Virus record (IMG/VR): IMGVR_UViG_3300021957_000419
Location: 1 to 20,138 of that record
Strand: one strand, 5' to 3'
Origin: a virus
DNA length: 20,138 nt
Shown here: positions 7,117 to 10,000 of the stretch, piece by piece
Layout of the letters: every line of letters begins with the position of its first letter
How positions within the stretch are numbered: position 1 is the first letter of the stretch
The notes under the pieces: model-generated
What the model was told of the DNA's origin: nothing
The model's database searches: none
Seen by the model: the letters and a program-made list of their open reading frames with translations, nothing else
Made by a program: the position numbers and the translations under genes

Positions 7117-7311
7117 CTACAATAAGTTAACTTCTCGTTTCACCATATTCAAGTACATTATTGGTTCTCTAAAACCTTGCTTACTCGCAAAATCTATCAT
7201 TTCATTAATACAAATTAATGCACATTGTTTAGCTTCTTGTTTATAATAGTCTGGACTTAACTCTAACGTAAATTTTTGAATTAATTCCCTTGCTTTTTCT
7301 TTTGGTGTCAT
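7117..7311 (-). CDS. Small protein, paralogue of 9632-9838
   Basis: 64 residues. It aligns with the 68-residue product of 9632-9838 along its length: MTPKEKARELIQKF versus MTPKEKAKELMQKA, a central CALICINEMIDFA versus IALLCVKEILDLG, and C-termini MVKREVNLL versus KVKIELNKL. Likely all helical. I recall similar MTPKEKA small proteins as scattered Bacteroidota phage accessory genes of unknown function. The stop codon lies inside the left cassette box (7112-7120). Confidence 0.65.
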   Translation of the reverse strand: MTPKEKARELIQKFTLELSPDYYKQEAKQCALICINEMIDFASKQGFREPIMYLNMVKREVNLL

Positions 7312-7341: not shown

Positions 7342-7405
7342 CAGTAGCTTACAGTAGCTAACAACGTATAAAAAACATTAAAACGATTTTTTATATGCAT
7401 CCGTT
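7342..7405. repeat. attC-like hairpin with duplicated box
   Basis: GTAGCTAAC (7354-7362) pairs perfectly with GTTAGCTAC at 7112-7120. Then come AACAAC, arm GTATAAAAAA (7366-7375), a short loop, arm TTTTTTATAT (7387-7396), and CATCCG|TT (7399-7405). Just upstream, ACAGTAGCT occurs twice in tandem (7341-7349 and 7351-7359), a partial duplication of the box. Confidence 0.65.
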
Positions 7406-7427
7406 ACCAGCAAATAAAAAGGGCGAC

Positions 7428-8229: not shown

Positions 8230-8336
8230 CGCCCTTTTTATCAGCAGGTAACAACGTATATAAAAAAGCGGGGTTGTTGTGCCTTGTCAATAGCAAGTTA
8301 ATCAATCGAGTTGTACACCTCAAATCAAAAACCGTT
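8230..8336. repeat. attC-like site
   Basis: The arm at 8230-8252 matches the reverse complement of 7403-7425 at 20 of 23 positions. It continues AACAACGTATAT and ends AACCG|TT at 8334|8335. Inner-arm pairing is weak here, unlike in its neighbours. Confidence 0.55.
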
Positions 8337-8382
8337 AGCCAATTTCCCCACCATTTCATATACAAGACCTTTATGCTTAATA

Positions 8383-9534
8383 CTAAAATAGCGTTAAACT
8401 TTTAGCTTCTCTCATTTCTTTAATAGGCTTTAATAGTTCTTCATAACCACTTATTCCCTCACCTATGTATTCGTGGCAGTAAGATGCTCTTTCTAGTCTA
8501 TTTCTTGCTTTCTTATCTGTATCTTCTTTTAATTTCCTAACCTTACCATTTTGAGCTGTTGGTCTAAATTTATCACTTTTATTTCTATATTCGCCTAATG
8601 CTGGGTTTACTGTTTTAGTATATACTTTACCACCTATTCCTACAAACATAGAAGCGCAAAACTCACTTATTTTAGTACCTAAACCCATTCCTTGAAAATC
8701 TGGTAAAACAACAGTTCTACTTAAAGCAAAACCATTAGGGCAACCTTTTCTAGGTTGGTTTATTACTGCACATATTCCAATAGGTTTATTGTTCCATTCA
8801 AATAAAAAGAATTTACAGCTTTTATTAACTGCCTCTGTTAAATAATGATGCTTTTTAAAGATGTTCCAAGTATCAGATTCGACTCTACTAACTTGTAATT
8901 CGATTTGTGGCTTTCCTTGCCGAAGCCATTCGCCTCTCTCAAGTGCGCCCCCATTTTTTTGTGGTGAACAAGTCCAATCTGGCATTAGCCATTCCATTAT
9001 ATCAAAATGACAACTTGCTAAAATTATACGTTTATTCGTTCTTCTAATGTATTTTTGTAAAGCAAAACTCATTGCTTTTGCCACATCTCTATCTACTACA
9101 CTTGTGTATTCGTCAACTAAAACAACTTCATTATCTTTTGCTTTACCAACTTTATATGCTAAAGACGCTCTGTATTGTTCGCCATTACTTAATAAATGAA
9201 AAGGTCTTAACCAAGTAGGTACACTGCTCAAACCCATACTTGTTAGTAATAACGTTGCGTCTTTAGGTTCTAACCAATCAAAATTACTTATTAAAGGCTT
9301 TTCGTAATCAAAATTACTTTCAGATAATTTACCCATTCTTTTTAATATAGTTGTTTTTCCGCTTCCGCTACTGCCATAGATAACACCTATATTCCAATCA
9401 AAGTTTTTTGCATCACTTAAATTAAATGACACCTCTACTTCTGTTTCTTCTTTGTTTTGTATATCAAATGCTTCATACACGTAATTAGTGTATTCATCAT
9501 TTTTAATACTACTTTTTAATTTTATTGTTCCCAT
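8383..9534 (-). CDS. ABC-type ATPase fused to Mom-like GNAT domain
   Basis: 383 residues in two domains. Residues ~1-200 form an ABC-class ATPase: Walker A GSSGSGKTT (54-62), signature LLSNGEQYR (114-122), Walker B VVLVDE (137-142), D-loop SVVD and switch His in ASCHFD (176). There are no membrane segments, so it is not a transporter. Residues ~210-340 form a GNAT acyltransferase domain: KKHHYLTEAVNKSCKFFLFEWNNKPIG, then SRTVVLPDFQGMGLGTKIS, the acyl-CoA-binding loop. The HHYL...F...NNKPIG segment recalls the NHYS... segment of phage Mu Mom, a GNAT-fold enzyme that modifies DNA adenine and blocks restriction. DNA modification is therefore a plausible role (inference). The gene fills one cassette-like unit (8334-9617). 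Confidence 0.8.
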   Translation of the reverse strand: MGTIKLKSSIKNDEYTNYVYEAFDIQNKEETEVEVSFNLSDAKNFDWNIGVIYGSSGSGKTTILKRMGKLSESNFDYEKPLISNFDWLEPKDATLLLTSMGLSSVPTWLRPFHLLSNGEQYRASLAYKVGKAKDNEVVLVDEYTSVVDRDVAKAMSFALQKYIRRTNKRIILASCHFDIMEWLMPDWTCSPQKNGGALERGEWLRQGKPQIELQVSRVESDTWNIFKKHHYLTEAVNKSCKFFLFEWNNKPIGICAVINQPRKGCPNGFALSRTVVLPDFQGMGLGTKISEFCASMFVGIGGKVYTKTVNPALGEYRNKSDKFRPTAQNGKVRKLKEDTDKKARNRLERASYCHEYIGEGISGYEELLKPIKEMREAKSLTLF

Positions 9535-9569
9535 TCTTTTTTGTTTTTAGTTTATTAACTCGTACTAAT

Positions 9570-9622
9570 GCTAACAATGTATATAAGCCATAGAAAAAAC
9601 GGCTCATATACTAACCGTTAGC
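9570..9622. repeat. attC-like hairpin, compact
   Basis: GCTAAC (9570-9575), AAT, GTATATAAGCC (9579-9589), an 11-base loop, GGCTCATATAC (9601-9611; 10 of 11 paired), TAACC, GTTAGC (9617-9622). The outer boxes pair with each other as well as with the neighbouring unit ends. Unequal spacers (3 versus 5) leave unpaired bases on one strand, as in attC sites. Confidence 0.65.
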
Positions 9623-9631
9623 AACAATAAG

Positions 9632-9838
9632 CTAAAGTTTGTTTAACTCTATTTTTACTTTACTAAAGTAGTCGTATATTCTAAAACTTGATGGCTCATT
9701 TGCAACATATCCTAAATCTAATATCTCTTTTACACAAAGCAAAGCAATAACCTTACATTGGCTTTGTGGTGTTTTATTAAATTTATCTAAATCATAAGCT
9801 TTTTGCATTAACTCTTTTGCTTTTTCTTTTGGTGTCAT
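9632..9838 (-). CDS. Small protein, paralogue of 7117-7311
   Basis: 68 residues, related along its length to the 7117-7311 product (shared MTPKEKA.EL.QK start, central cysteine-containing helix and lysine-rich end). Function unknown. The flanking DNA is also related: a 20-base stretch ending in GCTAACAACGTATAAAA upstream of both starts is nearly the same. The two cassettes therefore share an ancestor or arose by duplication. Confidence 0.65.
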   Translation of the reverse strand: MTPKEKAKELMQKAYDLDKFNKTPQSQCKVIALLCVKEILDLGYVANEPSSFRIYDYFSKVKIELNKL

Positions 9839-9873: not shown

Positions 9874-10000
9874 GCTAACAACGTATAAAATTCATTGCTA
9901 CATTGTGCTTAATTCAAAGGTTATTAATATTTATTTAATTCTGTTTTTAATCGTTAATTCTATGCTTTCTATACGCAACGAAATCTTATACAATTCCGTT
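9874..10000. repeat. attC-like site with long loop
   Basis: GCTAAC (9874-9879) pairs with GTTAGC at 9617-9622. Then come AACAAC, arm GTATAA (9883-9888), a ~97-base loop, arm TTATAC (9986-9991), and AATTCCG|TT at 9998|9999. Confidence 0.55.

Follow-up and report, generated by a model that had tools for sequence, protein, structure and literature searches.

A phage ABC ATPase-GNAT fusion between attC-like repeats: a probable DNA-modifying enzyme whose relatives exchange with Mom

Background

Mom, the DNA-modifying enzyme of phage Mu (Pfam PF25680, PDB 8bv8), associated with N6-(carbamoylmethyl)adenine in phage DNA, belongs by published description to the GNAT superfamily, and the activation of mom translation by Com is reported in PMC6483171. 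Another type of phage GNAT appears in a 2021 review (PMC7824862), whose passage on the Tenacibaculum jumbo phage pT24 describes a GNAT coupled with an ABC ATPase (hereafter ABC-GNAT), identified earlier by the same authors and predicted to acylate a DNA base in a way not yet characterised. The DNA-modifying role of ABC-GNAT is consequently already published as a prediction, on domain logic. The source of that prediction, reference 136 of the review, is reportedly a 2013 paper in NAR.

The window analysed here is the whole 20,138-base stretch of the virus record IMGVR_UViG_3300021957_000419. An earlier note, made from its sequence, had described a soluble ABC ATPase-GNAT fusion recalling Mom, carried as a cassette and possibly modifying DNA. 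The ABC-GNATs of pT24 and of Nonlabens phage P12024S (gene 24) have the same two domains as the window protein and align with it over the full length. The window copy is intact and lies between attC-like repeats, whereas that of the pT24 record (L083:6001-7176), the published exemplar, is interrupted at codon 254 by an in-frame TGA and split into two genes in the annotation, intact copies being found elsewhere.

Results and discussion

An intact ABC-GNAT gene in a phage genome

The window also contains terminase, tail, single-strand-binding and Erf-like genes, so that ABC-GNAT sits in a phage, beside the replication module. The fusion described in the earlier note, a soluble ABC ATPase joined to a GNAT with all motifs present, was confirmed as a single open reading frame of 383 aa, and it is indeed the sole large protein between 7.1 and 10.3 kb. 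The span of 8334-9617 proposed for it corresponds to the cassette between two attC-like cores, but the gene itself runs from 9534 to 8383 on the minus strand. The features of the gene and of its surroundings are the following.

8383..9534, minus strand: ABC-GNAT fusion gene, 383 aa (open reading frame list; phrog_11143 match, E 2.7e-133)
8935..9534, minus strand: ABC ATPase domain, residues 1-200 (AF2 model and Foldseek)
9352..9375, minus strand: Walker A GSSGSGKT, residues 54-61 (motif, homologue alignment)
9175..9192, minus strand: ABC signature LSNGEQ, residues 115-120 (motif, homologue alignment)
9109..9126, minus strand: Walker B VVLVDE, residues 137-142 (motif, homologue alignment)
9007..9009, minus strand: switch histidine H176 (invariant in 98 homologues)
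8464..8916, minus strand: GNAT domain, residues 207-357 (AF2 model, VIA Z up to 13.0, Pfam Acetyltransf_1)
8839..8850, minus strand: HHYL motif, residues 229-232 (Y231 invariant, H230 and L232 nearly invariant)
8677..8694, minus strand: acyl-CoA loop QGMGLG, residues 281-286 (intact; homologue alignment)
7357..7409, unstranded: attC-like inverted-core element (looser core scan)
8247..8340, unstranded: attC-like inverted-core element on the 3' side of ABC-GNAT (looser core scan)
9570..9623, unstranded: attC-like hairpin GCTAAC...GTTAGC, predicted -17.5 kcal/mol, on the 5' side of ABC-GNAT (looser core scan)
9874..9887, unstranded: attC-like element (GNTAACAAYGTATA copy)

The ABC half is of the soluble type, with Walker A, signature, Walker B and switch H176 intact, and these motifs are largely invariant across 98 aligned homologues; the best Foldseek matches of the domain are ABC nucleotide-binding domains. 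FKKHHYL (226-232) and NNKPIG are present in the GNAT half, where the CoA loop, QGMGLG, is likewise intact. Residues W223, F226, H230, Y231, L232, R273, V275, P278, G282, G284, G286 and W323 are invariant or nearly so in the GNAT part of the 98 homologues, and W323, at least 90% conserved in the family, is a Phe in the window protein. AF2 modelled the whole protein with a mean pLDDT of 92.1 and a pTM of 0.85, and residues 207-383 alone with a mean pLDDT of 91.6. The complete motifs and the confident fold count for a DNA-modifying enzyme.

The flanking repeats

The repeat GNTAACAAYGTATA occurs four times in the window (7357, 8247, 9570 and 9874) for 0.10 copies expected, a number reached in none of 100 shuffles. 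According to the looser scan, which is descriptive, three of the four elements pair with inverted cores, one as a clean hairpin, and the elements separate small ORFs and ABC-GNAT. A strict integron attC scan (RYYYAAC and GTTRRRY cores) gave no candidates in the window. No attC-like flanks were retrieved with a loose pattern at the 80 nearest viral relatives, which makes the cassette packaging a peculiarity of this phage. The idea of a cassette is therefore retained for the flanking repeats, which are real, but not as a trait of the gene family.

A related 18-mer, AGCTAACAACGTATAAAA, recurs in bacterial DNA: of the 24 stretches that contain it, 21 come from records bearing the name Flavobacteriaceae or that of a genus in this family. 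This predominance of flavobacterial stretches suggests that the host of the window phage is a marine flavobacterium and that the repeats are host-derived. Two paralogous small ORFs, 7117-7311 (64 aa) and 9632-9838 (68 aa, matching phrog_21441), are found in neighbouring cassettes and have an 81-nt stretch in common at 83% identity.

Membership in phrog_11143

Residues 3-359 of the window protein match columns 2-351 of the 357 columns of phrog_11143 (E 2.7e-133), both domains being covered, and its complete ABC motifs, GNAT HHY and QGxGxG are also those of this family. On sequence grounds, it belongs over its full length to a phage family that was already catalogued but is uncharacterised. It is matched by 61 phage records in tblastn, with the highest full-length identities in pT24 (59.6%), Nonlabens P12024S (58.6%) and Vibrio vB_VmeM-32 (49.3%). 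At least nine contigs are present twice under two locus ids, so that the raw locus counts used below are slightly inflated; counts clustered at 80% are given where important. A viral scan with the ABC protein of Enterococcus phage 9184 found no relatives. More distantly, an ABC-only relative stands beside ParB-like genes in Rhizobium phage RHEph10 (L094), and 147 Acinetobacter plasmid records match similar ABC proteins.

Comparison with Mom and with ordinary acetyltransferases

The proposed homology with Mom was not upheld by profile searches. The window protein reaches 26.9 bits with Pfam Acetyltransf_1 (cut-off 20.7) and has no match at E<=1 with Pfam Mom (PF25680), for which Mu Mom scores 2.1e-75. 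An hhalign comparison of ABC-GNAT with Mom aligned 49 columns, with HHY over HYS, at a probability of 5% and E 0.0077, the Mom alignment being small (10 rows) because Mu Mom as a query retrieved close copies only. The best solved folds for the predicted structure of the GNAT part are RimI and N-terminal acetyltransferases, with VIA Z scores of 13.0 (1y9k, IAA acetyltransferase), 12.4 (5isv, RimI) and 11.9 (Naa50) over 134-139 residues, and Mom 8bv8 is absent among the 50 best matches shown, an absence which excludes nothing. These acetyltransferases have the GNAT fold in common with the window domain, at 11-14% identity in the fold-match rows, but are devoid of an ABC domain and of ParB or Com partners.

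The fold and the acyl-CoA loop (Acetyltransf_1 26.9 bits, Z 13.0, QGMGLG) place the domain in the GNAT superfamily, as is the case for Mom. By eye, H48-Y49 and R101 of Mom correspond to H230-Y231 and R273 of ABC-GNAT; Mom nevertheless displays PRNSES in place of the QGxGxG CoA loop and, unlike ABC-GNAT, has no ABC domain. Judged by sequence and fold, the GNAT domain does not appear to be a Mom, a descent from Mom being invisible to the methods used.

Exchange with Mom in one genomic slot

A slot that contains ABC-GNAT and a formyltransferase in Porphyromonas phage phage011a (L102) contains Mom in phage013a (L376). The two genomes share 91.7% identity over 3,171 aligned bases just left of this slot and 80% over the last 91 bases to its right; this exchange was aligned as DNA for this one pair. 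Among the ten Porphyromonas phages with the adjoining last tail gene, five have ABC-GNAT, four have Mom (at least 99% identity), none has both and one has neither, this last being phage010a, whose record stops 190 bases past the tail gene. In these Porphyromonas phages, the slot is thus occupied by either ABC-GNAT or Mom. The slot is an accessory position, where genes of unrelated function could alternate too. Aeromonas phage PX29 (L087, L378) has a Mom-like gene and ABC-GNAT in one genome, indicating that the two need not be interchangeable and are not strictly redundant.

Com, ParB and formyltransferase partners

The DNA located before ABC-GNAT in Pseudomonas phage Komp_PAO1_1 is 73% identical, over 282 columns, to that located before Mom in PAN70, and this common DNA encodes a Com homologue (PF10122) in both phages (E 7.9e-21 and 1.1e-17). 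A Com-like ORF was found upstream of ABC-GNAT at 12 of the 341 loci scanned, and the six of these put to Pfam were all above the cut-off. ABC-GNAT with Com was found only in a lineage distant from the window copy, at about 30% identity. No sister phage was found in a search with the tail region of Komp_PAO1_1. The Com gene of this phage (L101:3695-3931) is unannotated, its record annotating instead an overlapping ORF in another frame.

A gene with the ParB core is present upstream of ABC-GNAT at 194 of 340 loci, or 227 of 340 when core or tail is counted, and 183 of 201 ParB hits end at most 60 nt from the ABC start. The C-terminal tail of this ParB also stands alone, as a gene of 42-49 aa just upstream (phrog_28816). 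In Microbacterium phage Antuna, a member of the ParB family associated with ABC-GNAT (E 5.2e-35) overlaps a Mom gene, and in phrog_498 this family is fused to a DNA methyltransferase (P335 ParB, E 3.3e-43). The relatives of the window protein and Mom therefore have slot, Com and ParB partners in common. Within the window, no ParB was found, and no ParB, Com or formyltransferase was seen beside ABC-GNAT, which is hence not of the ParB-ABC-GNAT operon type, the companion gene being frequent but not family-defining. Of the 80 loci nearest the window, five have ParB somewhere in the locus but none immediately upstream of ABC-GNAT, suggesting that this clade works without ParB, or borrows one.

At 50 of 340 loci, a formyltransferase-like gene (PF00551) is located 3' of ABC-GNAT, for example in Pseudomonas (L101:5113-5730), Porphyromonas (L102:5008-5481) and Gordonia (L093:1805-2452) phages. 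At the place of the N-x-H motif of PurN these genes read GFH, IFH or GYH, and one of them is annotated as a tRNA-methyltransferase. PMC6078989, on phages LE3 and LE4, lists the ParB and ABC genes, and the words "restriction" and "modification" do not occur in it. Among the papers listed by our literature searches, none appeared to deal with a frameshift, a formyltransferase or ParB in the ABC-GNAT family.

Frame changes at the ABC/GNAT junction

ABC and GNAT are encoded by one ORF at 292 of the 341 loci and by different ORFs at 45, the four others having ABC only. Relative to ABC, the GNAT frame of the 45 split loci is -1 in 39, +1 in four and unchanged in two (the pT24 TGA and L256); after clustering at 80%, it is -1 in 26 of 30, +1 in two and in frame in two. 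The +1 split of L094, the ABC-only relative from Rhizobium, is spurious. The ABC and GNAT frames of most split loci overlap, with HHY inside the overlap in the loci read, and the isolate loci with overlapping frames that were examined are all at -1 (8/8). In P335 and in a group B streptococcal phage, the GNAT frame contains no ATG, GTG or TTG ahead of HHY, so that a -1 shift would be needed to make this motif.

The junctions of split loci often carry runs of A9-A10, T7-T9 or A AAA AAG. Among fused genes, A/T runs of at least 9 number 28 in 11,031 nt of linker versus 1 in 189,888 nt elsewhere, and 25 of the 28 run-bearing genes have a stop at most one codon away in the -1 frame, whereas a stop within two codons in this frame is found in 5 of the 152 genes devoid of a run. 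Typical linkers are CAA AAA AAA AAT AGA (TAG in -1) and TTT TTT TTT AA (TAA in -1). A tree of the ABC domain only (218 rows) implies at least nine changes between "run or split" and "neither". With 300 synonymous-codon shuffles, a mean of 17.8 genes had a run of at least 9 and the largest value was 24, for 28 of 180 observed; this null is high since A or T runs are promoted by the amino acids of the linker, and much of the excess of runs is thereby accounted for. Where the runs lie, the preference for -1 and the stops next to them would accordingly be stronger signs of recoding than the run count.

The junction homopolymer of many relatives predicts two products, ABC-only and ABC-GNAT, which ribosomal and RNA polymerase slippage would account for indistinguishably from these sequences. 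Homopolymers of metagenomes may be assembly errors, of which the eight isolate genomes with overlapping frames are independent. In Escherichia coli, dnaX gives a short ATPase and a longer fusion from one gene by -1 slippage at an A-rich site. The linkers of ABC-GNAT relatives predict a similar layout of one gene and two products, although the two systems are not homologous and slippage in ABC-GNAT is predicted only. The relevant passages of two papers on recoding (PMC5009743 and PMC3711429) do not name ABC-GNAT.

The window gene presents a weak version of this junction, for which recoding is not claimed:

8954..8960, minus strand: A7 run (CAA AAA AAT) in the ABC/GNAT linker, candidate weak slip site (strong runs there in relatives)
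8939..8941, minus strand: TGA in the -1 frame, 5 codons past A7, which would give an ABC-only protein (inference)

A run of at least 7 is found at 4 of the 74 loci of the window clade with a linker found (of 80), and this low conservation does not support a slip-site function in the window.

Proposed function and alternatives

We consider it likely that the window protein is a phage DNA-modifying enzyme, an ATP-gated acyltransferase doing the job of Mom by another route. More generally, ABC-GNAT probably decorates phage DNA, hiding it from bacterial defences. This reading builds on observations which we regard as established: the domain make-up, the intact motifs and the family and, in relatives, the slot exchange with Mom and the Com and ParB partners. 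For the window copy, the function would follow from its belonging to the family, its identity to the Com lineage being about 30%. The nearest sequences and folds, those of ordinary and largely protein-acting acetyltransferases, count against it, as do the Phe in place of W323, the lack of ParB directly upstream in the window clade and the presence of both Mom and ABC-GNAT in PX29. The earlier note had regarded such a proximity as an argument against its proposal, and the claim of homology indeed falls, while the functional claim is restored by the genome context. The likeness to Mom is therefore kept as functional comparability, on the basis of the same-slot replacement, the Com homologue upstream and the common ParB partner, but not as descent from Mom or membership in its family. 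These same three features of the relatives support the DNA-modifying activity put forward in the earlier note, which is probably right, and bring independent genomic support to the prediction previously made on domain logic.

According to the proposed mechanism, the ABC half would dimerise around ATP in the manner of soluble ABC ATPases and clamp or scan the phage DNA, ATP binding or hydrolysis presenting a base to the GNAT half. The latter, whose putative active site is the region of HHY and Arg273, would then move an acyl group from acyl-CoA, held by the QGMGLG loop, to an amino group of this base. Phage DNA altered in this way would be protected against restriction nucleases. The window copy would act alone and travel between attC-like repeats.

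A more elaborate version can be put forward tentatively, doubt slightly prevailing. ABC-GNAT would be a second solution to momification, unrelated to Mom, in which an ATP-gated DNA acyltransferase replaces Mom behind Com and makes a new base; in many phages, two forms produced by homopolymer slippage, ABC alone and ABC-GNAT, would assemble into an asymmetric dimer in which a single ABC subunit bears a catalytic arm, and the formyltransferase-like partner of the Com lineage may add a second chemical step.

An unlikely alternative is that the GNAT acetylates a host protein for host takeover, the ABC half being regulatory. The nearest solved folds, RimI and N-terminal acetyltransferases with Z up to 13.0, fit this function, for which the GNAT Rac of phiKMV, acting on RNA polymerase, is a precedent mentioned in PMC7824862. 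Such a function leaves unexplained the presence of Com upstream, the alternation with Mom and a ParB common to Mom and DNA methyltransferases.

We give still less credit to a defence or superinfection-exclusion module made of an ABC sensor and a GNAT effector poisoning tRNA or translation, a layout comparable to that of RloC and PrrC, which combine ABC with an anticodon nuclease. The accessory position in phages and weak PADLOC matches over the P-loop and signature stretches (mad3, 3.6e-07) are in its favour, but the separate GNAT part of P335 has no PADLOC match, and the Com and Mom context, the overlap with ParB and the nearness to the terminase in several relatives speak against it.

A "moron" acetylating a small molecule (e.g. 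drug, polyamine) to help host or phage is very unlikely, since it agrees with the ordinary GNAT fold and CoA loop but makes the ABC ATPase and the ParB and Com partners superfluous and leaves these associations unexplained. The ATPase of an ABC permease, as annotated in many records (e.g. "putative ABC iron siderophore transporter") in line with its similarity to nucleotide-binding domains, can be practically discarded, given that no annotated ABC permease stands beside the gene in the isolate loci read, that the GNAT is fused or in an overlapping frame and that the partners are ParB, Com and formyltransferase.

If ABC-GNAT is a DNA-modifying enzyme as proposed, it would represent a new DNA base modification chemistry, extend the regulation by Com to more than Mom and reveal a recoding device between two enzyme halves. 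Cultivable phages are available for testing it: the sister phages differing at the slot, Lactococcus P335, Leptospira LE3, Enterococcus 9184 and Gordonia phages. In Enterococcus phage 9184, the GNAT half (L091:5603-6433) is annotated as "DNA polymerase" and lies in the -1 frame relative to the ABC ORF; the junction reads A AAA AAG.
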